Assembly: GCA_028279245.1 (NCBI GenBank)
Contig: JANQOE010000092.1
Span: forward strand, 1-64,000
Reading direction: 5' to 3'
Length of the DNA: 64,000 bases
From: Alphaproteobacteria bacterium
GTDB taxonomy: Bacteria; Pseudomonadota; Alphaproteobacteria; UBA6615
Positions 17,612 to 34,649 of the stretch are shown one piece after another (positions within the stretch are counted from its first letter, which is position 1; every line of letters begins with the position of its first letter). A program made the position numbers and the translations under genes. Under the pieces are notes generated by a model. The model made no database searches. It saw only the letters and a program-made list of their open reading frames with translations, and had not been told where the DNA came from.

Positions 17612-17648
17612 TTGCCTTGCCAATAATTTAGGTTACAAACTATTGGCA
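17612..17648 (+). promoter_or_regulatory. Putative boxC promoter and operator (leaderless start)
   Basis: TTGCCT (17612-17617) and TACAAA (17634-17639), 16 bases apart, would place the transcription start at or next to the boxC ATG (17648). A perfect 8-base inverted repeat, TGCCAATA (17618-17625) and TATTGGCA (17641-17648), spans the spacer and start site. No Shine-Dalgarno sequence precedes the ATG, so a leaderless mRNA under repressor control is plausible. Confidence 0.45.
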
Positions 17649-19294
17649 TGATCGACTTTCGGACGGACCCTAGCCGTTACCGGCATTGGACGATCAAGGT
17701 CGACGGATCGGTCGCGACGCTGGCCATGAATGTCGATGAAGATGGCGGACTGGATCCCGGGTACCGGCTGAAGCTGAATTCCTACGACCTGGGTGTCGAC
17801 ATCGAGCTGAACGACGCCGTGCAACGGCTGCGGTTCGAACATCCGGCGGTCAAGACGGTCGTCATCACATCACTCAAGGACCGGGTTTTCTGCGCCGGCG
17901 CCAACATCGGCATGCTTGGCCGGTCGTCGCATGCCGCGAAGGTGAACTTCTGCAAGTTCACGAACGAGACGCGGTTGGCGATCGAAGATACCACCGCCCA
18001 TTCGGGTCAGACCTACATGACGGTGATCAACGGTACCGCGGCCGGCGGCGGGTACGAACTGGCCCTCGCCACCGACCACATCATGCTGGTCGACGATGGA
18101 TCGACGGCGGTGTCCTTGCCCGAAGTGCCGTTGCTCGCAGTCCTGCCGGGCACCGGTGGGCTGACGCGTGTCGTCGACAAACGGCATGTGCGCCGTGACC
18201 GGGCCGACGTTTTTTGTTCGCTGACCGAAGGCATTCGCGGCCAGCGGGCGTTGAGTTGGAACTTGGTGGACGAGTTGGCGCCGCGATCAGCCCTGTCGGA
18301 TAGAGCGCGGGTGCGCGCGGCAGCGCTGGCCGAACGCTCGGACCGGCCGATGGATGCGGATGGGATCACGCTCGGGCCGTTGGACCGGTCAGTGATGGCT
18401 GACTCCATCACTTACGGCAATGTCGACGTGCAGCTCGACCGGGCGCAAGGCGTGGCGACGTTGACGATCCAGGGTCCGGATGAAGCGCCGCCGGCCGAGA
18501 CCTCGGCACTCGCCGAACTGGGGACCGGGTTTTGGCCGCTCGCGGTGAGTCGGGAGCTGGAAGACGCGATCCTGCATCTTCGCGTGAACGAACCGACCGT
18601 TGGCACGTGGGTGCTGAAAACAACCGGCGATCCCGATCTGTTGACCGCCCATGACGCTTGGTTACTGGCAAACCGATCGCACTGGCTGGTGCGGGAGATC
18701 CTGCTCTATCTGAAGCGGACGTTGAAGCGACTGGACGTTTCGTCGCGCAGCCTGATCGCAGTTATCGAACCGGGCTCGTGTTTTTGCGGCTCACTAGCGG
18801 AACTCGCCTTTGCCGCCGACCGAAGCTACATGCTCGATGGGACGCAGGAAGACGACGACCGCGTGGCGTCGTTACGACTGAGCGGTATGAACTTCGGCCC
18901 GTTGCCGATGGGCAATGGGCTGACACGGTTGGAGAGCCGCCTGATTGGCACGGCCGGGGCCGCCGCCGAATTGACCTCTGAGGTTGGCAAGGAGCTCGAT
19001 GCGGGGACAGCAGAGGGGCTTGGCCTCGTCACCTTCGCGCCGGACGATATCGACTGGGAGGATGAGGTGCGGGTCGCCATTGAAGAGCGTGCAAGTTTTT
19101 CGCCAGACGCCTTGAACGGTATGGAAGCCAACTTGCGGTTTGTTGGGCCGGAAACGTTAGAAACAAAAATCTTCGGGCGGTTGAGCGCCTGGCAGAACTG
19201 GATCTTTCAACGGCCGAATGCGGTCGGCGACAAAGGCGCCCTGAAGCTGTTCGGGTCAGGGCGTAAAAGCGAATTCGATAGGGAGCGCGTGTAG
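17648..19294 (+). CDS. boxC: 2,3-Epoxybenzoyl-CoA dihydrolase BoxC (benzoyl-CoA-dihydrodiol lyase)
   Basis: 548-residue crotonase-superfamily enzyme of the aerobic benzoyl-CoA (box) pathway. It opens 2,3-epoxybenzoyl-CoA hydrolytically to 3,4-dehydroadipyl-CoA semialdehyde and formate. The length matches BoxC (about 550) rather than ordinary crotonases (about 260). The oxyanion-hole segments FCAGANIGMLG and NGTAAGGGYELALATDHIML are present, as is the family-specific C-terminal half. It precedes boxB by 2 bases. The start has no ribosome site. Confidence 0.93.
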   Translation: MIDFRTDPSRYRHWTIKVDGSVATLAMNVDEDGGLDPGYRLKLNSYDLGVDIELNDAVQRLRFEHPAVKTVVITSLKDRVFCAGANIGMLGRSSHAAKVNFCKFTNETRLAIEDTTAHSGQTYMTVINGTAAGGGYELALATDHIMLVDDGSTAVSLPEVPLLAVLPGTGGLTRVVDKRHVRRDRADVFCSLTEGIRGQRALSWNLVDELAPRSALSDRARVRAAALAERSDRPMDADGITLGPLDRSVMADSITYGNVDVQLDRAQGVATLTIQGPDEAPPAETSALAELGTGFWPLAVSRELEDAILHLRVNEPTVGTWVLKTTGDPDLLTAHDAWLLANRSHWLVREILLYLKRTLKRLDVSSRSLIAVIEPGSCFCGSLAELAFAADRSYMLDGTQEDDDRVASLRLSGMNFGPLPMGNGLTRLESRLIGTAGAAAELTSEVGKELDAGTAEGLGLVTFAPDDIDWEDEVRVAIEERASFSPDALNGMEANLRFVGPETLETKIFGRLSAWQNWIFQRPNAVGDKGALKLFGSGRKSEFDRERV

Positions 19295-19296
19295 AC

Positions 19297-20712
19297 ATGC
19301 AGGTCAGCTACAACGACAAGATTCCCAACAACGTCAATCTGAGCGACGACAAGCGGCTGCAACGGGCGTTGGAGCGGTGGCTGCCGGCCTATCAAACCTG
19401 GTGGAACGATCTGGGACCGATCGATAGCCAGCAACACGAGGTCTATCTGCGCACGGCAATCAGCGTTGATACCGATGGCTGGGCGCATTTCGATCATGTG
19501 CGCATGCCGGATTATCGTTGGGGCATCTTTCTGGCCCAGCCGGAGGCGGACCGGCGCATTGGCTTCGGCACCCACAAAGGCGAACCGGTCTGGACTGAGT
19601 TGCCTGGCGAGTATCGGGCCGAACTACGGCGGCTGATTGTCACACAAGGCGACACCGAACCGGCCTCGGTCGAACAGCAGCGGCAGCTCGGGAAGACCTG
19701 CCCGTCGCTCTACGACTTGCGCAACCTGTACCAGGTCAACGTCGAAGAAGGGCGCCATCTTTGGGCGATGGTCTACCTCTTGCACGCCTATTTCGGCCGG
19801 GACGGGCGTGAAGAAGGCGAAGCGATGTTGGCGCGGCATGCCGGTGACCCCGACCGGCCGCGCATCCTCAAGGCGTTCAACGAACCGACCGACGACTGGC
19901 TGTCGTTCTTCATGTTCACCTTCTTCCAGGACCGGGACGGCAAGTTCCAGCTATCGGCCCTGGCAGAGTCTGGTTTCGACCCGTTGTCGCGCACCTGCCG
20001 TTTCATGCTGACGGAAGAAGCGCATCACATGTTCGTCGGCGAATACGGCTTGGCGCGAGTTTTGGAACGTAGCTGCGCCCTGATGCGCGAACACGATACC
20101 GCCGACATTCGGCGGTTCGGTGGCATCGACCTGCAGACCTTTCAGAAGTTCATCAACTTCCACTACAGCATCTGCCTCGATCTGTTCGGGCAGGAACAGT
20201 CGACGAATGCCGCGAACTACTACTCCATGGGGCTGAAAGGCCGTTATCACGAGAGCAAGATCGCGGACGATCATGTGCTCGCAGACCTGGGCGAAGCCGT
20301 GCCGTTTGTCGAGAATGGGGTCGTGCGGACTCAAGACGTCTCCGCCCTGACGGCCGTGAATGAGCGCCTGCGCCAGGACTACACCAAGGACAGCCAGCGC
20401 GGCATGAACCGGTTCAACAAGGTCATCCGCAGCTTCGGCATCGACACGGAGCTTTACCTGCCGCATCCCGCCTTTCACCGGGAGATTGGCGCGTTTGCCG
20501 ACTGCTATGCGAGTCCGGACGGGCAGATCCTGGATCAGGCCACCTGGAACAAACGGCAGGCGGAATGGCTACCCACCGAAGACGACAAGGCCTATGTGCG
20601 ATCGCTCATGCAACCGGTGACCGGGCCGGGACAGATGGCTGGATGGATCGCACCGCCGAAGCGCGGCATTCACGGGAAGCCGGTCGACTTCGAATACGTA
20701 CTGTTCCACTGA
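19297..20712 (+). CDS. boxB: Benzoyl-CoA 2,3-epoxidase, diiron subunit BoxB
   Basis: 471-residue diiron oxygenase that epoxidises benzoyl-CoA with O2, using electrons normally supplied by the reductase BoxA. Candidate iron ligands are Glu121, Glu151 and His154 (NVEEGRHLW), Asp212, Glu241 and His244 (TEEAHHMF), by the spacing of two ExxH-type motifs in the ferritin-like fold; exact assignment is by eye. No boxA or boxD lies in this window. It ends four bases from the convergent livF stop. Confidence 0.94.
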   Translation: MQVSYNDKIPNNVNLSDDKRLQRALERWLPAYQTWWNDLGPIDSQQHEVYLRTAISVDTDGWAHFDHVRMPDYRWGIFLAQPEADRRIGFGTHKGEPVWTELPGEYRAELRRLIVTQGDTEPASVEQQRQLGKTCPSLYDLRNLYQVNVEEGRHLWAMVYLLHAYFGRDGREEGEAMLARHAGDPDRPRILKAFNEPTDDWLSFFMFTFFQDRDGKFQLSALAESGFDPLSRTCRFMLTEEAHHMFVGEYGLARVLERSCALMREHDTADIRRFGGIDLQTFQKFINFHYSICLDLFGQEQSTNAANYYSMGLKGRYHESKIADDHVLADLGEAVPFVENGVVRTQDVSALTAVNERLRQDYTKDSQRGMNRFNKVIRSFGIDTELYLPHPAFHREIGAFADCYASPDGQILDQATWNKRQAEWLPTEDDKAYVRSLMQPVTGPGQMAGWIAPPKRGIHGKPVDFEYVLFH

Positions 20713-20716
20713 TCGG

Positions 20717-21418
20717 CTAGACGCCGAGATAGCGATGCTGAACGTCGGTCGCGTTGCGGAAGGCTTGGGTATCACCGGACCAGACGACCTGTCCCTTCTC
20801 GACGATGTAGTGGCGGTCGGCGAAAGCGAGCAGCCGCTGTACGTTCTTGTCGATCACCAGGATCGACAACGAGGCGTCCTTCAACTGCTGAAGCACGCGC
20901 CAGATCTGGGCGCGGATCAGCGGCGCGAGTCCTTCCGTCGCTTCGTCGAGAATCAGCAAGCGTGGGTTGGTCAATAGGGCGCGGCCGATGGCGAGCATTT
21001 GTTGTTCGCCGCCCGACAACTGGCTGCCCATGCTGTTGCGCCGTGCCTGCAACCCCGGGAACAGCGCGAAGACTTTTTCCAACGTCCAGGGATCGCTGAC
21101 GTTCCGGCGGTTGGCGAGGGTGGCGGTCAGGTTCTCCAACACGGTGAGATTGGGGAAAACCTGCCGGCCTTCCGGCACGAGCCCCAGGCCGGCCATGGCA
21201 ATACGGAAAGGCGGCTTGCCGGCCAGGGATGCGCCTTCGAATTGGATTGTGCCGGCGGTTGGGGGAACGATCCCCATCAGGGCATTGACGGTCGTCGTCT
21301 TGCCCATGCCGTTGCGGCCGAGGAGCGTCACGACTTCACCGGCCTCGATGCGGAAGGCCATGCCGAACAAGACCTGGCTGCTCCCGTAGGCCGCTTCGAG
21401 TCCGGATACCTCAAGCAT
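20717..21418 (-). CDS. livF: Branched-chain-type ABC transporter ATP-binding protein LivF
   Basis: 233-residue ATPase of a HAAT/Liv-type importer. Walker A is GRNGMGKTT, signature LSGGEQQ and Walker B LLILDEATEGLAP, the EATEGLAP ending being typical of LivF. Where LivF usually has a histidine in the H-loop this protein has LVIDKNVQRLL. Last gene of the livHMGF set. Next to box genes the substrate may be an aromatic acid rather than an amino acid; that is inference. Confidence 0.9.
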   Translation of the reverse strand: MLEVSGLEAAYGSSQVLFGMAFRIEAGEVVTLLGRNGMGKTTTVNALMGIVPPTAGTIQFEGASLAGKPPFRIAMAGLGLVPEGRQVFPNLTVLENLTATLANRRNVSDPWTLEKVFALFPGLQARRNSMGSQLSGGEQQMLAIGRALLTNPRLLILDEATEGLAPLIRAQIWRVLQQLKDASLSILVIDKNVQRLLAFADRHYIVEKGQVVWSGDTQAFRNATDVQHRYLGV

Positions 21419-21420
21419 GA

Positions 21421-22182
21421 TCAGGCGGCCGCCGTTTCTTCGTCGCCCAGGTAAGCCTGCCGCACCTTGGCATTGGCGCGGATCTCGGCAGGTGCGCCAG
21501 TGGCGATGGGACGACCGTAGACCAGCACCGTGATGCGGTCGGCCAGTGCAAACACCGCATCCATGTCGTGCTCCACCAGCATGATGGTGTAGCGGCGTTT
21601 GAGCCGCCCCAGGAAGGCGATCATGCGCTCGCTGTCGTCGGGGCCCATGCCGGCCATCGGTTCGTCGAGTAGCAGGATCTTCGGTTCCGTCGCCAGGGCG
21701 ATGGCGATCTCAAGGGCGCGCTGTTCACCATGGGACAGGGCGCCGGCGGGCACATCGGCACGGGACGCCAGCCCGACCTGATCTAGAACCCGTAGCGCCG
21801 GATCGCGTAGTGCCGGGTCGTTACGGGCGGCGCGCCAAAACCCGAAGCTGTGTCCCTGGCGGGATTGGCCGGCCAAAGCCACATTGTCGAGCACCGTGAA
21901 GTCACGGAAGATGCTGGTGATCTGGAACGAACGTACCAATCCATGACGCGCGCGTGCGGCCGCCGACCAATTGGTGATTGGCACACCATCGAACTTGATG
22001 CTGCCGGTATCCGCCTTCAGTTGGCCGGCCAGCAGGTTCACCAGGGTCGTCTTGCCGGCGCCGTTCGGTCCGATAAACGCGTGCAGCTCGCCCGGTTCCA
22101 ACTCAAACGACACCGCATCGGCGGCGACCAATCCGCCGAACGCCTTGGTCAGTGCCTCGACCTCAAGGCGGCTTTCAGGCAT
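21421..22182 (-). CDS. livG: Branched-chain-type ABC transporter ATP-binding protein LivG
   Basis: 253-residue ATPase partner of LivF. Walker [10 protein letters not shown], signature LSHGEQRALEIAIAL and Walker B ILLLDEPMAGMGPDD are present, with the H-loop in LVEHDMDAVFALAD. The signature's LSHGE form is common in LivG. ATG 22182 (MPESRLEVE) overlaps the end of livM by 8 bases; the longer reading from 22221 lies inside livM and is rejected. It precedes livF by 2 bases. Confidence 0.9.
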   Translation of the reverse strand: MPESRLEVEALTKAFGGLVAADAVSFELEPGELHAFIGPNGAGKTTLVNLLAGQLKADTGSIKFDGVPITNWSAAARARHGLVRSFQITSIFRDFTVLDNVALAGQSRQGHSFGFWRAARNDPALRDPALRVLDQVGLASRADVPAGALSHGEQRALEIAIALATEPKILLLDEPMAGMGPDDSERMIAFLGRLKRRYTIMLVEHDMDAVFALADRITVLVYGRPIATGAPAEIRANAKVRQAYLGDEETAAA

Positions 22183-23140
22183 GGCGTGGGTTGAGGCGTT
22201 CGACAAACCCAAGAACACCACCGCGGCCGAACAGCACTACGAGAATCAGCAGCGGGCCAAAGATCAGGTGCCAGTGTTCGGTGAAGCTCGACAGGATCTC
22301 GGCCAGCAACAGGAAGGCAAGCGCGCCCCAAACCGGTCCGAACAGGGTGCCCATACCGCCCAGCACGACCATGAAGATCAATTCGCCAGACCGTGGCCAG
22401 TTCATCATGTCGGGGCTGATGAACTTCTCAAGATTGGCCATGAGAATGCCGGCAAGGCCAACGATCACGCCGGAGATGACGAACGCGACGAGCCGGTAGC
22501 GATAGGCCGGGATGCCGATCGCATGGACGCGGGTTTCGTTGGACTTGGTGCCGCGCAGGACCATGCCGAAACGGGAGTTGACGATACGCCAGCAGATGAA
22601 GATGACCAGCAGTAGGAGCGCGAGCAGCAGATAGTAGAAGAAGACGCGGTCACCCAGGTTCGGCCCGACACCACCGACGTCGAACGTGCTTCTGTTATAG
22701 ATGATCAGGCCGTCGTTGCTGCCGTATTGATCCAAACTGGCGCCCAGAAAGAACACCATTTGGGCGAAGGCAAGGGTGATCATGATGAAGTAGACACCGC
22801 GCGTCCGCAGCGACACCGCACCGAAGACAAACGCGACAACTGCGGAGATGGCCAACGCAAGGGGCCACTGGATAAAGCCGTTGTCGATGCCGTGATAGGA
22901 CAAGATGCCGAAGGTGTAGCCGCCGATGCCGAGATAGGCGGCATGCCCAAAGCTGACCATGCCGCCGTAGCCCATGATCAAGTTCAACCCGACGGCGGCG
23001 ATAGACCAAATCATGATCCGGGCGAACACATTCACATAGAAGCCGTAGCCGATCAGCGGCGCGACGATGGGCACCAGGGCGATCACCACGAACAGGACGA
23101 ACGTCGCAATGGCGGCTGGGTTCCTGGCGATGTCCTTCAT
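22175..23140 (-). CDS. livM: Branched-chain-type ABC transporter permease LivM
   Basis: 321-residue inner-membrane permease with about eight to ten hydrophobic helices. Family motifs are GLNLIMGYGGMVSFGHAAYLG and, toward the C-terminus, GGMGTLFGPVWGA. It overlaps livH by 4 bases upstream and livG downstream, indicating translational coupling in the livHMGF operon. Confidence 0.9.
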   Translation of the reverse strand: MKDIARNPAAIATFVLFVVIALVPIVAPLIGYGFYVNVFARIMIWSIAAVGLNLIMGYGGMVSFGHAAYLGIGGYTFGILSYHGIDNGFIQWPLALAISAVVAFVFGAVSLRTRGVYFIMITLAFAQMVFFLGASLDQYGSNDGLIIYNRSTFDVGGVGPNLGDRVFFYYLLLALLLLVIFICWRIVNSRFGMVLRGTKSNETRVHAIGIPAYRYRLVAFVISGVIVGLAGILMANLEKFISPDMMNWPRSGELIFMVVLGGMGTLFGPVWGALAFLLLAEILSSFTEHWHLIFGPLLILVVLFGRGGVLGFVERLNPRHA

Positions 23141-24066
23141 GCCGAGCGGGCCCGCGGCGGAAAAAGGCCTTGCGGCCGGAAGAAGAGGATCGCCGCCATC
23201 AGAATGTAGATGAGCATCGATGACAAGGCCGGCCCCGCCGTTTCCGCCGCCTGCACCGGCATGAAGAGCAACAGGATCTCATCCAGAAAGGCCCGGCCCA
23301 TGGTGTCGATGACGCCAGTGAGCAGCGCCGCGATGAACGCGCCGCGGATCGACCCGATGCCGCCGATGACAATCACGACGAACGCCAGAATGAGGATCTG
23401 TTCACCCATGCCAATCGACGCCTGACTGATCGGGGCGATCAACATCCCGGCGAGACCTGCCAGGACAGCGCCAATTCCAAAAACGAGGGTGAACAGCAAC
23501 CCGACATTGACGCCGAGTGCACTGGCCATGGTGCGATTGGACGCGCCGGCCCGTATCAGCATGCCGATGCGCGTATGGCTGACCAGGACGTAGAGTCCAA
23601 AGGCGACGGCGATGCCAACAGCGATGATGAGCAGACGATATGTCGAGTAGGTGATGCCGAGGGGCAGTTGCACACTGCCATTGAGCACGGCCGGCAATGG
23701 CACGGACAGCCCCGCTGGGCCCCAGACGACCCGCACCAACTCGTTGAAGAACAGAATCAGACCGAAGGTCGCCAGCACCTGGTCCAGATGGTCGCGGGCG
23801 TAGAGCGTGCGCAGCGCGACGACTTCGACGACAAGACCAACGATCAAGGTCGCCGGGATCGCTAGCAGCACCCCGATAAAAAACGAGTCCAGCGCCAGCG
23901 TGAAGGTCGCCGCAAAAAAGGCGCCGACCATGTAAAGCGACCCATGGGCCAGATTCACTAGGTCCATGATGCCGAAGACAAGCGTCAATCCGGCGGCCAG
24001 CAAGAACAACAGGACACCCAATTGAAAGCCGTTCAGCGCTTGTTCCAGCACAAAGGCGGTCGTCAT
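23137..24066 (-). CDS. livH: Branched-chain-type ABC transporter permease LivH
   Basis: 309-residue inner-membrane permease, the partner of LivM. Motifs LTLVFGIMDLVNLAHGSLYM near the N-terminus and VIVIGGIGSIRGAFIAALL near the C-terminus are characteristic. It is separated from the binding-protein gene livK by a strong terminator-like hairpin, so it is probably expressed at a lower level. Confidence 0.9.
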   Translation of the reverse strand: MTTAFVLEQALNGFQLGVLLFLLAAGLTLVFGIMDLVNLAHGSLYMVGAFFAATFTLALDSFFIGVLLAIPATLIVGLVVEVVALRTLYARDHLDQVLATFGLILFFNELVRVVWGPAGLSVPLPAVLNGSVQLPLGITYSTYRLLIIAVGIAVAFGLYVLVSHTRIGMLIRAGASNRTMASALGVNVGLLFTLVFGIGAVLAGLAGMLIAPISQASIGMGEQILILAFVVIVIGGIGSIRGAFIAALLTGVIDTMGRAFLDEILLLFMPVQAAETAGPALSSMLIYILMAAILFFRPQGLFPPRARSA

Positions 24067-24090
24067 GCGGTCACGCTAGCCAGATCTATC

Positions 24091-24129
24091 GGAAAGAAAA
24101 AGCGGGGCCGGCTCAGCCGCCCCCGCTTT
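24091..24129 (-). terminator. Intrinsic terminator/attenuator between livK and livH
   Basis: On the minus strand AAAGCGGGG (24121-24129) pairs with CCCCGCTTT (24099-24107), with an inner CGGC-TGA-GCCG stem, followed by a T-rich run TTTTTCTTT. It lies 18 bases after livK stops and before livH starts. Partial read-through would give more binding protein than permease. Confidence 0.8.
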
Positions 24130-24146
24130 ATGAAATGTCTGCAGCG

Positions 24147-25322
24147 CTACATGCCGCATTCGGCTGCATAGACATCCTGATGGTCTTCCAAGGCGACGCC
24201 AATGGCTGACGTCGTCCAATTGCCGTCCGCGTCGACTACGACCTGGCGGGCATGGAAGTCTTGGATCGGGAAGTGGTTGTTGCCGAACGCGAAATCACCA
24301 CGTACGGACTCGAAATCGGCCTGCTCCAGCGCGGCCCGCAAGGCGTCGGGGTCGAGGTCGCCGTTGGTGGCCTCGACCGCCGACTTGATTAGCATGATCG
24401 CGTCGTAGGACTGGGCCGCATAGAAGGATGGATAAGCTCCGTGCTGCGCGCGGAAATCGGCGACAAAGCGCTGGTTCTGCTCATTGTCTAAGTCCGGCGC
24501 CCAGAACTGCGTCATGACCGTACCCAGCACCGTTTCCATCCCGGCTTCCTGGAAGCGCGGCAAACTCAGCGCATCGAGAGTGTAGACAGAGTAGAGCGGC
24601 GTGTCGGCCAAGCCCGCTTGCTCGTACTGCTTGACGAATGCAGGACCGTGGCCGCCGGGGTAGAATGTGAAGACCGCATCGGGCGAGGCCGCCTTGACCT
24701 TGGTGAATTCGGCCGCCCAGTCGATCTGGCTTGGCCAGGTGGTCATGTCCTTGCCGACCACGTTGCCTTGGAAGGTACGTTCAACGCCGGAGACCATGTC
24801 TTTGCCGGCCGCATAGTTCGGCGCGATGATGTAGAGGTCCTCAACACCGCGTTCGTTCAGGACTTGGCCCAGCGCCATCGGCGTCTGGTCATTCTGCCAA
24901 GCCACATTGAAGAAGTTCTGGTGGCATCCCGGACCGGCCAACTGCGACGGGCCGGCATTGGCGCTAATCAGAATCTTGCCCGCGTCCAGCACCGTGTTCG
25001 CGGATGCGAGCAACACATTCGACCAAATGTAGCCGGTGACGATATCTACATCGTCACGCTGCACCAGCTTCTCGGTCTTCTGCTTGCCGGTCTGCGGGTT
25101 GAACTCGTCATCCTCGTAGACGACCTCGACTTCGAGGGGACCCATCTTGCTGTCGATGTGGTCCAGTGCGAGTTCCACGGCCTTGCGCATGTCTTCGCCA
25201 ATGACCGCCGCGCCGGTGGTGAGCGTTGTTACAAAGCCGATCTTGATCTTGCCGTCGTCCGCCCAGGCGGGGCTTACCCCCAGTGCCAGGACAGAGGCAA
25301 GCAGTGCCGACCGTCTGAACAT
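24147..25322 (-). CDS. livK: Periplasmic substrate-binding protein, Liv/aromatic-acid type
   Basis: 391-residue type I periplasmic binding protein. A signal peptide (MFRRSALLASVLALGVSPAWA) is followed by KIKIGFVTTLTTGAAVIGEDM, the usual start of the Leu/Ile/Val-binding fold. ATG 25322 has GGGAGG seven bases upstream, preferred over the longer frame. Location beside boxCB and an aryl-CoA ligase suggests an aromatic carboxylate ligand, but the sequence alone does not prove it. Confidence 0.9.
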   Translation of the reverse strand: MFRRSALLASVLALGVSPAWADDGKIKIGFVTTLTTGAAVIGEDMRKAVELALDHIDSKMGPLEVEVVYEDDEFNPQTGKQKTEKLVQRDDVDIVTGYIWSNVLLASANTVLDAGKILISANAGPSQLAGPGCHQNFFNVAWQNDQTPMALGQVLNERGVEDLYIIAPNYAAGKDMVSGVERTFQGNVVGKDMTTWPSQIDWAAEFTKVKAASPDAVFTFYPGGHGPAFVKQYEQAGLADTPLYSVYTLDALSLPRFQEAGMETVLGTVMTQFWAPDLDNEQNQRFVADFRAQHGAYPSFYAAQSYDAIMLIKSAVEATNGDLDPDALRAALEQADFESVRGDFAFGNNHFPIQDFHARQVVVDADGNWTTSAIGVALEDHQDVYAAECGM

Positions 25323-25354
25323 TCGTACCTCCCAAAAGATGGTTTGTTGGACCA

Positions 25355-25382
25355 ATAATAGGTGACACCGAGGATCTGCAAA
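25355..25382 (-). promoter_or_regulatory. Putative livK promoter
   Basis: On the minus strand TTTGCA (25377-25382) and TATTAT (25355-25360) are 16 bases apart, about 33 bases upstream of livK. The plus-strand text here, CCAATAAT then AGGTGACA, resembles the boxC promoter (CCAATAAT then AGGTTACA), hinting at a shared regulator. Confidence 0.35.
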
Positions 25383-25438: not shown

Positions 25439-25846
25439 CTATGGAACAACGGCGGTTGCCTCGATTTCGAGCAACGCTTCCTTGTCGACCAATCCGCTCA
25501 CCGCGATGACCGACATCGCCGGATAGTGACGTCCCATCACGCCGCGATAAATGGCACCGAGATCCCCTATGCTCTTCAGATACAACTCGCGATCGACGAC
25601 AAACCAGGTCATTCGGACGACATGCTCAGGTCTGGCGGCCACTTCCGCCAGGATCGCCGTGATATTCTTCAGAGCCTGCTCAAACTGGCCGACGAAGTCG
25701 GTCCGGGTAAACTGCTGGGTTTCCGGGTCCCAGCCGACCTGGCCGGCAAGGAATACCGGCTTTCCCTCCGCCACCACGCCATTGGCATAGCCGCGGGCCG
25801 GGGCCCAGGTTGGCGGCTGCAGGAACTTCATGCTTGGAACGCCCAT
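25439..25846 (-). CDS. RidA family (YjgF/YER057c/UK114) protein
   Basis: 135-residue member of the RidA superfamily, trimeric enzymes that hydrolyse reactive enamine/imine intermediates or related compounds. The fold pattern YANGVVAEGKPVFLAGQVGWDPETQ and the C-terminal LLEIEATAVVP are recognisable. The conserved arginine of true RidA (near position 105) is not evident: the segment reads HYPAMSVIAVSGL, so this is a divergent subgroup. Genes like this accompany aromatic-CoA clusters; the exact substrate is unknown. ATG 25846 has GGAGAG upstream. Confidence 0.82.
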   Translation of the reverse strand: MGVPSMKFLQPPTWAPARGYANGVVAEGKPVFLAGQVGWDPETQQFTRTDFVGQFEQALKNITAILAEVAARPEHVVRMTWFVVDRELYLKSIGDLGAIYRGVMGRHYPAMSVIAVSGLVDKEALLEIEATAVVP

Positions 25847-26043
25847 CGGTTGTTTAATCTCTCCAACATTTTATATACGAAATAAGTTCCAGGTGTGTAG
25901 AGTATCGTCCCCCGGGTATCGAGACCTTCGCGGCCTTCTGAGTAGTTCGAAACGCGCGTGCACGTGAATCCCGGCCTAGATAAAACTACCCGACCGTGTA
26001 ACCGTAACGCCAGTGTGGTTTGGACCTAAAGGACCGATGTTGG

Positions 26044-26550
26044 ATGCAGGTTTCTTCAGACGATGGGACAAATGGAGCCGATTTCGAGACGGCCACAACC
26101 GGCGGCGACCAGATGGAGCTGCGGCTTTGGTTGAGAATGCTGACCTGCACCAATCTCATCGAAACGGAGGTTCGGCAACAGTTGCGTCGCCAATTCGGGA
26201 TCACTTTAGCTCGATTCGACCTGCTGGCGCAGTTGGCGCGTGCGCCGAAGGGGCTGACCATGGGCCAGCTGTCCAAGCGCCTTATGGTATCGAACGGTAA
26301 CGTCACCGGTCTGATCAGCCGATTGGAGGGCGAGGGACTTGTCGAGCGCCAGGTCGCACCGCACGACAAGCGAGCGCAAATCGTGCGGCTGACCGAACGG
26401 GGAGACCAGGCCTTTTCGAACATGCTGCCGGCGCATAGTGCCTGGATTCGACAATTGTTTGGAAACCTTGATCCGGACGACGTTCTGAGACTGATGAACC
26501 TGCTCGCGAAGCTGAAGAGTAACTTGCCGGGACGGGAGAGCGACGCTTGA
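26044..26550 (+). CDS. MarR family transcriptional regulator
   Basis: 168-residue winged-helix regulator. The recognition region [20 protein letters not shown] and the wing [21 protein letters not shown] are typical of MarR repressors that release DNA on binding aromatic ligands or their CoA thioesters. Its stop codon overlaps the next gene, so it heads the aromatic-CoA operon. The neighbouring box and liv promoters are its likely additional targets. ATG 26044 is chosen; a TTG at 26020 is possible. Confidence 0.85.
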
Positions 26551-27365
26551 CCAGGTGGGCCGCGACAACATTCAAGCCCAACTACTTCCTGTGGTCGGTC
26601 GAAGACAGGGTCGCCACAATCACGCTGAATCGGCCGGAAAAGAAGAATCCTCTTACCTTCGAGAGCTATGCCGAGTTGAGGGACACCTTCCGGCGGTTGA
26701 AGGGTACAGATGATGTCAGCGTTGTCGTAATAACCGGCGCCGGCGGCAATTTCAGCTCCGGTGGCGATGTGCACGAGATCATTGGGCCGCTGGTGGACAT
26801 GGATATGCCTGAGCTCCTCCGCTTCACGCGGATGACCGGCGACCTGGTGTTGGCAATGCGCGAATGTCCGCAAGCGATCGTCGCCGCGATTGATGGTATC
26901 TGCGCCGGCGCCGGCGCCTGTGTGGCGATGGCATCCGACCTGCGGTTCGGTACGGCGAGCAGCAAAGTCGCTTTTCTCTTCACCCGAGTCGGTTTGGCCG
27001 GCTGCGACATGGGCGCGTGTGCGATGTTGCCCCGGATTGTCGGCCAAGGGCGGGCGAGCGAGTTGCTGCTCACCGGACGCAGCATGGACGGCAGCGAAGC
27101 CGAGCGGTGGGGCTTCTACAATCGACTGGTTGCTCCGGACGACCTCCTGCAAGCGGCACATGATCAGGCGGCGCGGCTGGCGTCCGGGCCGACCTTTGCG
27201 CACGGCATGACCAAGACCATGCTGAACGCGGAATGGAACATGGGACTCCGCGAGTTCATTGAGGCGGAAGCGCAGGCGCAAGCCGCCTGCATGCAAACCC
27301 AGGACTTTCGCCGCGCCTACGAAGCTTTTGTGACCAAGGAAAAACCGGCCTTCAAAGGGGATTGA
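26547..27365 (+). CDS. Enoyl-CoA hydratase/isomerase family protein lacking both usual glutamates
   Basis: 272-residue crotonase-fold protein beginning at TTG 26547, overlapping marR by 4 bases. The oxyanion-hole motif [11 protein letters not shown] and [19 protein letters not shown] are present. However, the two catalytic glutamates of classical hydratases (GGGxEL and QPEVxxG) are replaced, the second region reading [16 protein letters not shown] with Asp154. Such sequences form a crotonase subfamily often found in aromatic-CoA clusters; the reaction is unknown here, and water addition to a simple enoyl-CoA should not be assumed. Confidence 0.82.
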
Positions 27366-28537
27366 TGGCGGACACGACCTTCCTCACCTGGCCGTTCTTC
27401 GACGACGAACATCGGCGTCTCGCGGCAGAGTCCGCCGATTGGATCGGCCGGGTGTTGGGAAATGCCACGCATGGCACAGCGGATCTGGACGCGGCCGCCC
27501 GGGACTTGGTTTCGCAGTTGGGCGAGGCTGGCTGGCTACGCTACTGCGTCCCGGCAAGCCATGGCGGCCGGCACGAGCAGCTTGATGTGCGCAGCATCTG
27601 CCTGTTGCGCGAGGGTTTGGCTCGGCAATCCGGCCTGGCGGACTTTGCGTTCGCGATGCAGGGTCTGGGCAGCGCGCCGATTTCCTTGTTCGGTTCGGCG
27701 GCGCTGAAAGACCGGTATCTGCCGGCGGTCGCCGCCGGTGAGCGGATCGCGGCGTTTGCGATCTCCGAACCCGAGTCGGGGTCGGATGTTGCTGCCATGA
27801 CGACGACGGCGCGGCTGGATGGCGACAGGTACGTGTTGAACGGCACCAAGACCTGGATCTCCAACGCCGGCCTCGCCGACCAGTACGTCCTGTTCGCGCG
27901 GACCGGTGAGGCGCCGGGTGCGAAGGGCCTGTCTGCCTTTGTCGTCGACAGCGACAAACCCGGCCTATCGGTTGCTGAACGCATCGACGTCATTGCCCCG
28001 CATCCCCTTGGTACATTGAAGCTCACGGATTGTACGGTCCCGCGGTCGCAGATGCTTGGCGGGCCGGGCGACGGCTTCAAAGTTGCAATGACGACATTGG
28101 ACGTGTTCCGGTCGTCGGTCGGCGCGGCGGCCCTGGGTTTCGCGCGGCGCGCGCTTGACGAAGCGATCGCCCGTAGCAACCAGCGGGAAGCGTTTGGACA
28201 AAAGCTGCGGGACATGCCGCTGATCCAGGCGAAGCTTGCGGACATGGCGGTGCAGATCGACGCCGCCGCGTTGCTGATCTACCGGGCGGCGTGGACCAAA
28301 GATACGCAGGGTGGCCGGATCACGCGGGAAGCGGCGATGGCGAAGCTGTATGCGACAGAGGCCGCGCAGCGGGTGGTCGACCAAGCCGTGCAGATCTTCG
28401 GGGCACTCGGCGTCGTCAGCGGATCCGTGGTCGAGCAGCTTTATCGCGAAGTGCGGGCGTTGCGGATCTACGAGGGCACCAGTGAGATCCAGCAGCTCGT
28501 CATTGCCGGGCAGACCTTGGCAGCCGCAGAAGGATGA
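27365..28537 (+). CDS. Acyl-CoA dehydrogenase
   Basis: 390-residue FAD enzyme that introduces an alpha,beta double bond into an acyl-CoA. FAD/substrate motifs [13 protein letters not shown] and [12 protein letters not shown], the arginine-rich QREAFGQKL helix and C-terminal [12 protein letters not shown] (with the presumed catalytic Glu) are intact. The ATG overlaps the previous stop (TGATG). In aromatic-CoA operons it probably acts on a ring-opened or partially reduced intermediate. Confidence 0.9.
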
Positions 28538-28541
28538 TGCG

Positions 28542-29990
28542 GTGAAGCTGTTTGAGCCGCTCGACATCAATGGGATGCGAATCCCCAACCGGGTTCTGGT
28601 GCCGGCCATGGTCACTCGTCTGTCGGGCGAGGACGGTCACGTCAATCAAGATATCATCGACCGCTACGTCCGATATGCGCAGGGCGAAGTCGGCTTGATC
28701 GTCGTCGAGGCGATGGCCATTCACAGCTCGAAGTCGGGGCCGTTGCTGCGTATCAGCGACAACGCGTTCGTCGCCGGTCATGCGGACCTGGCGCGCCGGG
28801 TGCACGAGACATCCGGGTCAAAGATCGTGCCGCAGATCATCCATTTCATGAAGGTGGCGCGGTCGGGCTGGCGGCAAACCATCGACATGCTGAGTGTCGA
28901 TGAGATCGACCTCATCGTGCAACAGTTCGCCGACGCCGCGGCGCGGGCCCAGGATGCGGGCTATGACGGCGTGGAGCTGCACTCGGCGCACGCCTACACG
29001 CTCGCGTCTTTTGTGTCCAAACGAAACCCGCGGCGCGATGCGTATTCGGGCCGGACCATGGAAGGCCGATTGCATATGTTCGGCCGTGTCATGGCTGCGG
29101 TGCGAAAACAGGTCGGCGACGACTTCCCCGTTGGGGCGCGTTTCCTGGCGGAGGAATGCATCAAGGACGGCTACACGGTCGAAGACGCAAAGCTGATCGC
29201 GTTACGCATGGCGCAACTTGGCGTCGACTACATCTCACTTTCCGTTGGCGGCAAGTTCGAGGACGCCGTCTACCGCGAGGGGCAACCGCTCTACCCCTAC
29301 ACCGGCTATTCGGGTGACCGCTGTATGCCGGGCGACTGGTACCCGCCGCTGCCGCATGCGCACCTGGCGGCGGCGATCAAGTCTTTCATCAACGAAAAAG
29401 GATACGCGGTGCCGGTCGTGTCGGCCGGCAAAATCTCCGACCCCGTTGATGCCGAGGGGCTGCTGCAGGCGGGTATGGCCGATATCATCGGCATGGCGCG
29501 GCAGTTACTCGCCGACCCGGATTGGCCAAAGAAGGTACGGCAGGGCCGTACGGACGAGATCGTTCGCTGTATCTATTGCAATGTCTGCAAGACGCTCGAC
29601 GAGAACTTCAAAGAAGTGCACTGCTTTCTATGGCCGAAACACCTCCGCCAGGCCCCGCCAGTTGAGACGGTCGGCGATGCCCCGGCATGGCCGAAGGATG
29701 GAGCGCGACTTCAGGCGCGATTCAAAAAGGGCGAGATCAAGTTGGACTGGTCACGTGCCGCCGGCGATGTCGCCGGCTACGATGTGTATCGTGCGGAAGA
29801 TGACGGCCAAGTACGATGCGTCGAAGCTGTCAAGGGCGCTCGTTACCGCGACATGAGCGTGTTGGGCGGCATAACCTACACCTACTATGTGCGCGCCTAT
29901 GATGCGGCGGGGCGGGGCAGCGTGCCGTCGAACACGGTTCGGCTGACGCTGCCGTTGCCCCAGTTGGCGGATCTGGAGGAGGTTTGCTGA
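28542..29990 (+). CDS. Old yellow enzyme-family oxidoreductase with 4Fe-4S motif and C-terminal FN3-like domain
   Basis: 482-residue protein from GTG 28542. Residues 1-340 form an OYE-type FMN barrel (FEPLDINGMRIPNRVLVPAM, HSAHAYTLASFVSKRNPRRD, GMARQLLADPDWPKK). Cys343, Cys346, Cys349 and Cys361 give C-x2-C-x2-C-x11-C, resembling the cluster of 2,4-dienoyl-CoA reductases. Those enzymes continue into FAD and NADPH domains; here they are absent. Residues about 387-475 instead resemble a fibronectin type III domain (KLDWSRAAGDVAGYDVYRAE, TYYVRAYDAAGRGSVPSNTV). The enzyme probably reduces an aromatic or dienoyl-CoA intermediate with an external electron donor. A longer reading starting at 28311 lies in the wrong frame of the upstream gene. 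Confidence 0.85.
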   Translation: MKLFEPLDINGMRIPNRVLVPAMVTRLSGEDGHVNQDIIDRYVRYAQGEVGLIVVEAMAIHSSKSGPLLRISDNAFVAGHADLARRVHETSGSKIVPQIIHFMKVARSGWRQTIDMLSVDEIDLIVQQFADAAARAQDAGYDGVELHSAHAYTLASFVSKRNPRRDAYSGRTMEGRLHMFGRVMAAVRKQVGDDFPVGARFLAEECIKDGYTVEDAKLIALRMAQLGVDYISLSVGGKFEDAVYREGQPLYPYTGYSGDRCMPGDWYPPLPHAHLAAAIKSFINEKGYAVPVVSAGKISDPVDAEGLLQAGMADIIGMARQLLADPDWPKKVRQGRTDEIVRCIYCNVCKTLDENFKEVHCFLWPKHLRQAPPVETVGDAPAWPKDGARLQARFKKGEIKLDWSRAAGDVAGYDVYRAEDDGQVRCVEAVKGARYRDMSVLGGITYTYYVRAYDAAGRGSVPSNTVRLTLPLPQLADLEEVC

Positions 29991-29992
29991 GA

Positions 29993-31645
29993 ATGCCGAA
30001 ACGCCCCGGTGGTCGATCGATCCACGTGGATACCTTCGCCGCCGACCACATGCCGCCACCGGATCAGCAACCCTGGATGGACTATAGCGCACTGCCGGAG
30101 CTTGCCGCGTATCCGGATCGGATGAACGCGGCTGTGGCGCTATTGGACCGGCAGATCGATGCGGAGCGTGGCGACCATCCGGCAATGTTGTTTGACGGCG
30201 GAGCATGGTCTTACGAGGCGTTTCGGTCCCAGGTGGATCGGATTGCCCAGGTCTTGGTTGATGATATGGGCCTCATCCCCGGCAACCGGGTGCTGCTGCG
30301 AGGTCCCAATAACCCGATGATGGCGGCGGTATGGTTGGCCACCGCCAAGGCCGGTGGTGTTTGTGTCGCGACAATGCCGCTGCTGCGGGCGCGGGAGCTG
30401 GGTTACATCATCGATCGGGCGCAAGTGCGCTTCGCGCTGTGCGATGCGTCGCTGGCGGAGGAGTTGGACAAAGCCACCAGGGGCCGGCTTATCGAGCGAA
30501 CAGAGCTGTTTTCGGCCCTGGGCGATGGCGACACGGGGTTCGACCGGCTGCTGCGTGAGAAAACGGGCCCATTCACAGCCGTCGACACCGCGGCGGATGA
30601 CGCCGTGCTGATTGCGTTCACGTCCGGTACGACCGGCCAGCCGAAGGGTACCCTGCACCTGCACCGCGACATCATTGCGATGTGCGACTGCTTTCCGACA
30701 CACGTGGCCGGTGCGAATGCCGATGAGGTCTATACGGGCACACCGCCTCTCGCCTTCACCTTCGGCCTTGGCGCGTTGCTGGCCTTCCCGCTCAGCGTCG
30801 GCGCGTCCGTCGCCTATTCCCGGCCCGGACCCGACTTTCTGCTGGAAACGGTGCAGAAACACCGCTGCACCACGCTCTATTCGGCGCCGACAATGTTTCG
30901 GGCACTGCTGGACCGCTTGTCCGACTACGACATATCATCACTAAAGACCTGCGTGTCCGCCGGGGAGACCCTGCCCAAACCGACGTTCGATGCTTGGGAG
31001 GAGGCGACGGGTGTTCGTATCATCGACGGCATCGGTTCGACCGAGATGACACACATCTTCGTTTCTTCGGCGGGTGCGGATATCCGGCCCGGCGCCACGG
31101 GGAAAGTCGTGCCCGGTTACGAAGCACGTATCGTCAGCGAGGATGGGCAGGAACTCGGACCGGGTGAAGTTGGACTGCTTGCGATACGCGGCCCAACCGG
31201 ATGCCGCTATCTCGACAACCCGGAGCGCCAACAAGCCTATGTGCGGAACGGCTGGAACCTGCCCGGGGATCTGTATCTTCGCGACGAGGATGGATACTAC
31301 TGGTACCAGTCGCGCGCCGACGACATGATTGTCTCCTCCGGTTACAACATATCGGGGCCGGAAGTCGAGGCGATCCTGATGGAGCATGACTGTGTTCGGG
31401 AGTGCGCGGTCGTCGCTTCGCCGCACCGGGAGCGCGGTCACATCGTCAAGGCATTTGTCATCTTGCGGGATGGCTTGGCCGGCGATGAGGCGCGGGCAAA
31501 AGAACTGCAGGATTTCGTCAAGGCGGAGATCGCGCCGTACAAATACCCGCGGGCTATCGCGTTCGTCGATGATCTGCCGCGCACCGAGACCGGTAAGATT
31601 CAACGGTTCAAGCTACGCCAACAAGAAGAACAGCAGGCTCAATGA
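29993..31645 (+). CDS. Aryl-CoA ligase, 2-aminobenzoate-CoA ligase type
   Basis: 550-residue AMP-forming acyl-CoA synthetase. The phosphate loop [14 protein letters not shown] starts near residue 209, the A5 motif is IDGIGSTEM and the C-terminal catalytic lysine is in TETGKIQRF. Motifs such as [13 protein letters not shown] and the gene context match the benzoate/2-aminobenzoate ligase group. Activates an aromatic acid to its CoA thioester with ATP, the entry step for this operon. ATG 29993 follows the OYE stop by 2 bases. Confidence 0.88.
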
Positions 31646-33882
31646 AGATAAACTGCCTCGGCGGCGGCCCGGGAGGACTCTACTTCGCCATTCTGATGAA
31701 GAAGGCGATCCCCGGCGCCGACATCACCGTCGTCGAACGGAATCGTCCGGACGATACGTTCGGCTTTGGCGTGGTCTTCTCCGACGCGACGTTGGAGGGC
31801 TTTGCCGATGCGGACCGGGAAAGCTATGAGCGCATCACCGCCAGCTTCGCCCATTGGGACGACATCGATATCCATTTCAAAGACAATGTACTGACTTCGA
31901 CCGGGCACGGGTTCGCCGGGATGTCGCGCAAGCTGATGCTCAACATCCTGCAGGAACGTTGCGCCGAGCTCGGGGTCAAGCTGTTGTTCGAGACGGATAT
32001 CGGCGATCCGGAGGATTGGCGCGATTGCGACCTGGTGTTTGCCGCCGACGGTGTCAACAGTCTGGTGCGGGACCGGTATGCCGAACACTTCGAACCGCAG
32101 ATCGATTTCCGCCCGAACAAGTTCGTCTGGCTTGGTACCACCCGCGAGTTCCCGGCTTTCACCTTCTACTTCAAGGAAAACGAACACGGGTTGTGGCGGG
32201 TGCATGCCTACCGCTATATGCCTGGGTATTCGACTTTCATCCTGGAATGCACCGACCAGACCTTTGCCAATAGCGGTCTGCGCATCGACGATGAGGATGG
32301 CACGATCCGCTACGCCGAAGCGCTGTTTAGGGACGAGCTGCAGGGCCACCCGCTGATTAAGAACCGGTCGCACTGGCGCAACTTCCCGACAATTTCGTGC
32401 TGCAACTGGTCACACGGCAATGTCGTCCTCAGCGGCGACGCCGTGCACACCGCCCACTTCTCGATCGGGTCCGGCACCAAGCTAGCGATGGAAGATTCCG
32501 TCGAATTGGCCAAGGCGTTGACGCAGTCGGACAATGTGGCGGACGCGCTGCGCGTTTACGAGGCGGAACGGCAGCCGGCGGTGGCCAGCATTCAGCGCGC
32601 TGCGCGGACGTCGCTTTGCTGGTTCGAAGAGACGGAGCGCTACCACGAACATCTCGAACCGATCCAGTTCGGTTTCAGCCTGCTAACCCGTTCCCTGCGC
32701 ATCAGTCACGAGAACCTCAAGCAACGAGACCCGGCCTACGTCGCGAAAATCGACGCGTGGTACGCGACGAAGGCGGCCAACCAGAGCGGCCGGAACGTGC
32801 CGACCGCGCCGCCGATGTTCACGCCCTTCAAGCTGCGCGATCTGGTGCTGAAGAACAGGGTCGTCGTGTCGCCGATGTGCCAATACTCGGCGGAGGACGG
32901 CACGATCAACGACTGGCATCTCGTGCATCTGGGCAGCCGGGCGCTGGGCGGTGCGGGCCTGGTCATCACCGAAATGACCGACGTCAACCGTGATGGCCGG
33001 ATCAGTCCGGGTTGCGCTGGCATGTACAAGCCCGAGCATGTCGGAGCGTGGCGGCGCGTTGTCGACTTCGTTCATACCCACAGCGATGCGCGGATTGGCA
33101 TGCAACTGGCGCATGCCGGCCGCAAGGCCGCGACCAAGCTGGGCTGGGAAGGCGACAACGAGCCACTGGCCACCGGCGCGTGGCCACTCATGGCACCGTC
33201 GCCCCTCCCCTACCGTGAGCAAAACCAGGTGCCGCGCGAGATGACGCTGGAAGACATGGCTGCGTTGCGGCGGGATTTTGTGCGCGCCGCCGAGATGGCG
33301 ATCGAGGCTGGCTTCGATCTGTTGGAGATCCATTTCGCCCATGGCTATCTGCTATCGACATTCATCTCGCCGCTGACGAACACGCGGACGGATGCCTATG
33401 GTGGTGACCTAGCCGGGCGCATGCGGTTCCCGCTTGAAGTGTTCGACGCGGTGCGCGCGGTCTGGCCGGATGAAAAACCGATCTCAGTGCGGATCTCGGC
33501 GACGGATTGGAAGGAAGGCGGCAATACCGGAGCCGACGCGGTGCGGATCGGCGAAATGCTGAAGGCCCATGGCTGCGATATTGTCGATGTGTCGGCGGGC
33601 CAGGTGGTTGCCGATCAAGAGCCGGAGTATGGGCGGCTGTTTCAGACACCGTTCTCCGACCGGGTGCGTCTCGAAGCGGACATACCGACGATGACGGTGG
33701 GCGCTATTTCTTCCTATGAAGACGTGAATTCCATTCTGGCGGCGGGACGGGCCGATCTGTGCGTGATGGCCCGGGCGCATCTCTACGACCCCTACTGGAC
33801 GCGGCATTCCGCCTTTGCGCAGGGGTACGAGATGGACTGGCCCAACCCCTACACCTCCCTGACCGGCTATACCCCGCGATGA
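31642..33882 (+). CDS. Bifunctional 2-aminobenzoyl-CoA monooxygenase/reductase-type flavoprotein
   Basis: 746-residue two-domain flavoprotein. Residues 1-385 are a FAD aromatic hydroxylase ([40 protein letters not shown]). From residue 392 it is an OYE-type FMN domain ([40 protein letters not shown]). This architecture is that of 2-aminobenzoyl-CoA monooxygenase/reductase, which hydroxylates and then reduces the ring of the CoA thioester, and of proteins annotated as salicylyl-CoA 5-hydroxylase/oxidoreductase. The substrate is not fixed by sequence. It overlaps the ligase by 4 bases and the next crotonase by 4. Confidence 0.9.
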
Positions 33883-34649
33883 GCGACCTATTTGTCGAAA
33901 CGCCGGCGCCCGCCGTGCGGCTGGTCACCTTGAACCGGCCGCAGTTGCGCAACGCGATCAGCACCGCAATGCTGACGGAGCTTGCGGATACGCTCGAAGG
34001 GTTTGCGGCGGACGAAGGCGTGCGCTGTGTGGTCGTAACTGGCGGGCCCGATGTCTTCGCCGCCGGCGCGGATCTGAACGAGGTCGCCGCGTTGGAACGT
34101 ACCGAGGCACTGGACAATCCACGCATGGCCCAATGGGACCGCATCGCCGCGTTTCCCAAGCCGCTTGTCGCGGCGGTGAACGGCTATGCGCTGGGCGGTG
34201 GTAACGAACTGGCCATGGTGTGCGACATCGTCATCGCCGGCGAGGCGGCGATCTTCGGCCAGCCCGAGGTGCGCGTCGGCTTGTTACCCGGCGCGGGTGG
34301 AACCCAACGGTTGCCCCGGTTTGTCGGCAAGTCGCTGGCCATGAAAATGGTGCTGGCGGGCGAGCCGATCGATGCGCCGGCCGCGCTGGCGGCCGGTTTG
34401 GTGGCTGAGGTGGTGCCGGCCGACGCGACCATCGCCCGGGCGCTTGAGCTTGCCGGCACGATTGCTCAGCGGGCGCCGGTTGCCGTGCGGCTGGCCAAAG
34501 AAGCCGTGCTGGCGGCCGAGCAGAACGCGCTGAATGCGGGACTCGCTTTCGAACGCCGGGCTTTCGCGTACCTGTTTTCGACCGAGGACATGCGCGAGGG
34601 CGTTGCGGCCTTCCGCGAGAAACGGCAACCGCAGTTCAAGGGGCGCTAG
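33879..34649 (+). CDS. Enoyl-CoA hydratase
   Basis: 256-residue crotonase with both classical glutamates in place: Glu110 in [12 protein letters not shown] and Glu130 in [16 protein letters not shown], plus the oxyanion-hole motif [10 protein letters not shown]. Predicted to hydrate a 2-enoyl-CoA in the lower part of the pathway. ATG 33879 overlaps the preceding stop as ATGA; the longer frame from 33759 lies within the flavoprotein gene. Last gene of the marR operon. Confidence 0.9.

Follow-up and report, generated by a model that had tools for sequence, protein, structure and literature searches.

Background

In the classical, single-domain old yellow enzymes (OYEs), such as YqjM and XenA, FMN is reduced by NAD(P)H without the help of a nucleotide domain. 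The three-domain, iron-sulfur (Fe-S) OYEs, among them FadH (1PS9) and 2-naphthoyl-CoA reductase (6QKG), are longer: the barrel is followed by a cysteine cluster and then by an FAD/NAD(P) half, and in the described members the cluster carries electrons to FMN. Both FadH and 2-naphthoyl-CoA reductase act on CoA esters. In 2-naphthoyl-CoA reductase FMN receives electrons one at a time from the cluster, and NAD(P)H is not the donor (PMC6502838). Trimethylamine and histamine dehydrogenases are likewise Fe-S OYEs and keep an ADP-binding half, and in them ETF receives electrons from the cluster (PMC6502838). BilR, the short form of bilirubin reductase, lacks the C-terminal half of the long form, is encoded together with the flavodoxin-like BilS and presumably draws its electrons from a separate protein (PMC10769871).

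Beyond 2-aminobenzoyl-CoA monooxygenase/reductase (ACMR), little is firmly established about how 2-aminobenzoyl-CoA reaches central metabolism. Gene clusters for 2-aminobenzoyl-CoA (anthranilate) catabolism were reportedly first described in Azoarcus evansii, and the cluster of that organism is said to hold genes for ACMR, an SDR, a hydratase, a dehydrogenase, a ligase, MarR, RidA and an ABC importer. A review of the ACMR pathway assigns further degradation to beta-oxidation enzymes, and, because too little was known about it, tryptophan degradation by way of anthraniloyl-CoA monooxygenase/reductase was left out of a curated pathway survey (PMC9007349). Anthranilate-CoA ligase activity has been shown for the pAL1 ligase of Arthrobacter Rue61a (PMC3534580).

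Here we analyse a stretch of 64,000 nucleotides (the window; contig JANQOE010000092.1, positions 1 to 64,000) from an alphaproteobacterial genome (GCA_028279245.1), which encodes an Fe-S OYE ending in a fibronectin type III (FN3) domain. For this OYE/FN3 protein we have computed the fold, the FN3 assignment, the conservation of cysteines and catalytic residues, the operon context and the co-occurrence with ACMR.

Results and discussion

Barrel and cysteine site

The OYE/FN3 gene (28542..29990, + strand) encodes 482 amino acids, starts with GTG and has a stop codon ending at 29990; in most homologues the start, M/V-K-L/I/F, falls at the same aligned position. Residues 1-342 (28542..29567, +) are recognized as an OYE-type TIM barrel by Pfam (PF00724, Oxidored_FMN, 2.1e-45), by the barrel model and by Foldseek, which matched it to OYE structures (best E 2.9e-27), with single-domain OYEs as the nearest folds. 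Residues Q98, H147, H150, Y152, R200 and R320 are invariant in all 46 members of the family alignment, so that the active-site His pair and Tyr (H147, H150 and Y152) are kept in every member together with the flavin-site residues. The best NCBIfam matches are BaiCD and mycofactocin OYE 2, and its scores for the long NCBIfam families fall well short of their cut-offs. Structural alignment with the three-domain Fe-S OYEs gives 22-28% identity, and trimethylamine and histamine dehydrogenases show a modest sequence match over the barrel.

The barrel is followed by C343-x2-C346-x2-C349-x11-C361 (29568..29624, +), a probable [4Fe-4S] site that lines up with the Fe-S motif found in long dienoyl-CoA-reductase-like proteins. 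C343, C349 and C361 are invariant (46/46), C346 is present in 45 of the 46 members, all four cysteines occur together in 45, and the Fe-S segment as a whole is at least as well conserved as the barrel. Its C-x2-C-x2-C spacing is that of halophile Fe-S OYEs (CIGCN[IV]C) and not the C-x2-C-x3-C of annotated dienoyl-CoA reductases. These features support placing the protein among Fe-S type OYEs of the dienoyl-CoA reductase, BaiCD and trimethylamine dehydrogenase kind, and from the predicted anatomy FMN would be expected in the barrel with a [4Fe-4S] cluster beside it. Across the wider group the set of four ligands is not constant, because the second cysteine is missing in a planctomycete member (L111) and in a sister family. 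The planctomycete protein (L111:10001-11416) has the FN3 region and Ala at the second cysteine, and its gene lies downstream of genes for RidA, MarR, an enoyl-CoA hydratase (ECH) and an acyl-CoA dehydrogenase (ACAD).

The C-terminal FAD and NAD(P) alpha/beta domains are absent. Only 121 residues follow the last cysteine, compared with 306-328 in five of six long Fe-S OYE-like (dienoyl-CoA-reductase-like) proteins (the sixth, which is without the four-cysteine motif, was left out of this length comparison), a beta domain stands in their place, and a motif search of the whole protein found no GxGxx[GAS] nucleotide-binding motif. There is no obvious signal sequence. Loss of the FAD/NAD(P) half by a frameshift was ruled out, because the architecture recurs in the copies from 80 loci, apart from those cut by contig ends or masked. 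The original prediction, made from the window alone, had named the barrel, the position and spacing of the four cysteines and the missing FAD/NAD(P) half, and all of these were borne out.

The C-terminal FN3 domain

An FN3-like fold had also been proposed for the C-terminus, to be checked by structure prediction and a fold search, and both returned an Ig-like sandwich. The domain spans residues ~388-470 (29703..29951, +). Pfam recognizes it weakly in the single sequence (fn3, residues 398-466, E 0.012, 16.2 bits, below the cut-off of 25) and at E <= 0.01 in nine of the 46 family members (best 2.3e-5). A profile built from 41 C-terminal segments matched solved FN3 structures in the PDB, with the Fn3-like protein 3mpc (2.5e-9) as the best single-domain chain, outscored by titin solely through summed repeats, and with the chitinase A1 FN3 domain 1k85 at 1.6e-7. 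AlphaFold modelled the segment alone as an all-beta fold (pLDDT 94.6), and in the full-length model the strands run from 391 to 469 with block pLDDT values of 87-96 across most of the stretch. The best PDB neighbours of the segment model are mostly FN3 domains or FN3-containing proteins, including FN3con (4u3h, 1.9e-5) and a Contactin-5 FN3 domain (4n68, TM 0.75, 1.7 A). Profile match and predicted fold together identify the segment as a true FN3 domain, and a chance FN3-like residue spacing was ruled out on the same two grounds. A literature search for OYEs with fibronectin type III domains gave no relevant report among the matches listed.

The original prediction went further and had the sandwich dock an electron donor or a neighbouring enzyme of the operon. 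What we found lends this no specific support: the FN3 domain has diverged more quickly than the barrel (mean column identity 57% versus 77%), its invariant residues in the family alignment (L401, W403, R417, D437, G443, Y448 and G457) for the most part resemble the usual core positions of an FN3 fold, and the OYE/FN3 gene has no conserved redox-partner gene next to it. We regard a docking role as unlikely. Sitting where the chain of its relatives has the FAD/NAD(P) half, which the three-domain Fe-S OYEs retain and the OYE/FN3 protein replaces with a domain of ~83 residues, the FN3 domain would most likely be a structural or assembly module. The observation made at the outset is thus confirmed, and its interpretation is partly supported.

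Distribution and relatives

A survey of OYE proteins with the same architecture, as the original prediction had proposed, was made in three samples. In an even set of 385 Alphaproteobacteria genomes, with a carrier defined by a match at E <= 1e-70, there are 19 carriers in 11 families, including the window's own genome; the other 18 have copies of 60-75% identity. A scan of GTDB genomes gave 103 relatives, from which 80 loci were kept, mostly from Alphaproteobacteria, with some from Betaproteobacteria and one from a planctomycete (L111). In a phylum sample of 398 genomes the only carrier is the window's own genome, so that the family is uncommon there. Except where a copy is masked (the tail of L079) or truncated by a contig end (for L087, inside the domain), family copies reach through the FN3 domain. 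One apparent FN3-less member, L030, was rejected as such; its DNA stops at a contig end. OYE/FN3 proteins are a conserved, uncharacterised family of flavin enzymes.

In a single FastTree run on the barrel plus Fe-S segment, rooted at the midpoint, the FN3 family adjoins a sister family and is separated from the long dienoyl-CoA-reductase-like proteins, two further OYEs of the window's genome and ACMR's OYE half. Members of the sister family (L005-L012) are without FN3, have an insertion of ~75 residues, and have the second cysteine replaced by Thr or Ser (C-x-Y-[TS]-N-Y-C). They come from relatives in the window's order and from the Limnohabitans plasmid pTEGF4. In two genomes the sister OYE is encoded near the same ABC importer genes as those of the window (61-74% identical).

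Operon and aryl-CoA context

Six genes on the + strand of the window follow one another in the order MarR, enoyl-CoA hydratase, acyl-CoA dehydrogenase, OYE/FN3, ligase and ACMR. A gene counted as a neighbour in the 80 loci if its product was at least 45% identical to the corresponding window protein. On this count the MarR-family regulator (26020..26550, by Pfam) recurs in 41 loci, the enoyl-CoA hydratase (26547..27365; NCBIfam PRK08258 family, 472.6 bits, cut-off 330) in 28, the acyl-CoA dehydrogenase (27362..28537, by family matches) in 35 and the aryl-CoA ligase (29984..31645; 50.5% identical to the Arthrobacter Rue61a pAL1 ligase) in 48. The ACMR-type gene (31642..33882) matches NF006101 with 1144.8 bits (cut-off 1078), a family that NCBIfam names bifunctional salicylyl-CoA 5-hydroxylase/oxidoreductase, and is found near the OYE/FN3 gene in only three of the 80 loci. 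The usual operon, seen in many of the loci, is SDR-MarR-enoyl-CoA hydratase-acyl-CoA dehydrogenase-OYE/FN3-aryl-CoA ligase. The family SDR cluster is represented in 47 of the 80 loci; the window's operon holds no orthologue of it, and the best match elsewhere in the genome is 43% identical. At some loci the flanks examined hold MarR alone or lack all the tested pathway genes.

On the opposite strand lie a RidA family gene (25439..25846, -, by Pfam) and genes that we take, naming them from sequence, to encode a branched-chain-type ABC importer, LivFGMH plus a binding protein (20717..25355, -). The same set occurs in family loci and in a Comamonas ACMR cluster, and its probable function would be aromatic-acid uptake. 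Adjoining the importer genes are BoxC and BoxB, genes of the benzoyl-CoA epoxide pathway (17648-20712). Beyond the operon, a listed ORF for a PaaF-like hydratase (33759-34649) overlaps the ACMR gene; its family match begins at residue 45, so that the real start is probably near 33879.

In the kinds of genes it holds, including an anthranilate-type CoA ligase and an ACMR-type gene, the operon matches the 2-aminobenzoyl-CoA clusters. Co-occurrence points the same way. Counting ACMR where a match includes or reaches into the monooxygenase half (short matches in G126, G135, G218, G231, G320 and G397 cover the OYE half only and were left out), we found it in 18 of 19 OYE/FN3 carriers versus 53 of 366 non-carriers in the 385-genome sample (Fisher one-sided P 1.4e-13, a value that ignores phylogenetic relatedness), and the two genes lie within ~5 kb of each other in the window and in three further genomes of the class (G144, G224 and G247). 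The OYE/FN3 protein is not essential to the pathway as such, because most genomes with ACMR (53/71) do not encode it. Comamonas and Limnohabitans plasmids have clusters of ACMR, SDR, hydratase, dehydrogenase and ligase genes that, unlike the window, contain no OYE/FN3 gene. On the Limnohabitans plasmid NZ_AP027057.1 (L012, L013 and L120), kynA, kynB and kynU accompany an ACMR-SDR-ECH-ACAD-ligase-RidA cluster and a sister OYE, which by gene content is a complete-looking tryptophan-to-CoA-ester set. The window's own genome encodes kynureninase, and anthranilate could therefore arise from tryptophan.

The OYE/FN3 enzyme might instead serve another branch, with salicylyl-CoA as a possible substrate, and be linked to ACMR through nothing more specific than aryl-CoA catabolism shared by large-genome bacteria. 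The ligase at some family loci resembles 2,3-dihydroxybenzoate-AMP ligase, BoxC and BoxB lie upstream in the window, and one genome, G209 (96% complete; L134, G209:C57), has an SDR-MarR-OYE/FN3-ligase operon with no full-length ACMR, only stand-alone OYE matches. Set against these are the proximity of the OYE/FN3 and ACMR genes in three class genomes besides the window and the relationship of the window's ligase to anthranilate-CoA ligase, and we consider the other branch a doubtful reading.

Proposed reaction and electron source

We infer the cofactor content, substrate, direction and donor of the enzyme from this anatomy and context. Our preferred reading, to which we give a probability of roughly 50%, is that it is an FMN/[4Fe-4S] OYE reductase of an FN3-bearing subfamily, fed by a carrier and acting on a ring-derived CoA thioester in the aerobic catabolism of ortho-substituted benzoates, that is, 2-aminobenzoate and perhaps salicylate. 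The ligase would make the aryl-CoA, ACMR would then dearomatise it, and the OYE/FN3 enzyme would reduce an enoyl- or dienoyl-CoA (alicyclic CoA-ester) intermediate after ACMR, before or during the beta-oxidation-like steps of hydratase, dehydrogenase and SDR. The [4Fe-4S] cluster would most likely take up electrons singly from a ferredoxin, flavodoxin or ETF acting as a separate carrier, and the electrons would leave FMN as hydride. It counts against this reading that ACMR already carries an OYE half of its own.

An external carrier seems the likeliest donor, at about even odds, because the four-cysteine site is near-invariant and by analogy with 2-naphthoyl-CoA reductase, trimethylamine dehydrogenase and BilR/BilS. 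The parallel with BilR is one of a barrel without the long form's C-terminal half; the part of the BilR description considered here mentions no FN3 domain and concerns mainly Firmicutes and another substrate (PMC10769871). Nor, unlike BilS beside BilR, was a conserved flavodoxin gene found beside the OYE/FN3 gene in the 80 loci. An operon-encoded redox partner was ruled out as a conserved feature, with ferredoxin-like ORFs in only three of these loci. The three ORFs are at L106:9610-9894, L104:6737-7045 and L095:19992-20258, the first divergent and ~100 bases from the OYE/FN3 gene.

Absence of the nucleotide domain does not force an external donor, since YqjM and XenA need none. NAD(P)H might reduce the FMN directly, as in those enzymes, with no partner and with the cysteine site structural or a relic. 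Single-domain OYEs are the nearest folds of the barrel, a partner gene is not conserved, and L111 and the sister family do without the second cysteine, all of which would suit direct reduction. We nevertheless consider it fairly unlikely, given that three cysteines are invariant and the fourth nearly so in a segment no less conserved than the barrel, and that electron transfer is the role of the cluster in the Fe-S OYEs described (PMC6502838).

Alternatively, the enzyme may run as a dehydrogenase, its substrate reducing FMN and electrons leaving through the [4Fe-4S] cluster to ETF, a transfer described for trimethylamine and histamine dehydrogenases (PMC6502838). The halophile-type spacing of the first three cysteines, rather than that of annotated dienoyl-CoA reductases, would agree with this direction. 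Acyl-CoA dehydrogenases pass electrons to ETF, and the one in the operon would be expected to feed ETF too. However, the ADP-binding half of trimethylamine and histamine dehydrogenases is missing here, and both reductions and oxidations are required once the ring has been hydroxylated, so that the context favours neither direction; the dehydrogenase reading is in our judgement unlikely. Quite improbable, taken as a whole, is the most far-reaching reading, an OYE class in which FN3 replaces the flavin/NAD(P) half, docks a one-electron carrier or neighbour enzyme, and serves an undescribed reductive step after ACMR in anthranilate or tryptophan breakdown.

Conclusion

In bacteria FN3 domains are better known from secreted enzymes; in the OYE/FN3 family such a domain is part of a redox enzyme that appears to be cytoplasmic. 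As a conserved operon gene of redox type, OYE/FN3 is a concrete candidate for a missing step between 2-aminobenzoyl-CoA and central metabolism, and may supply one.
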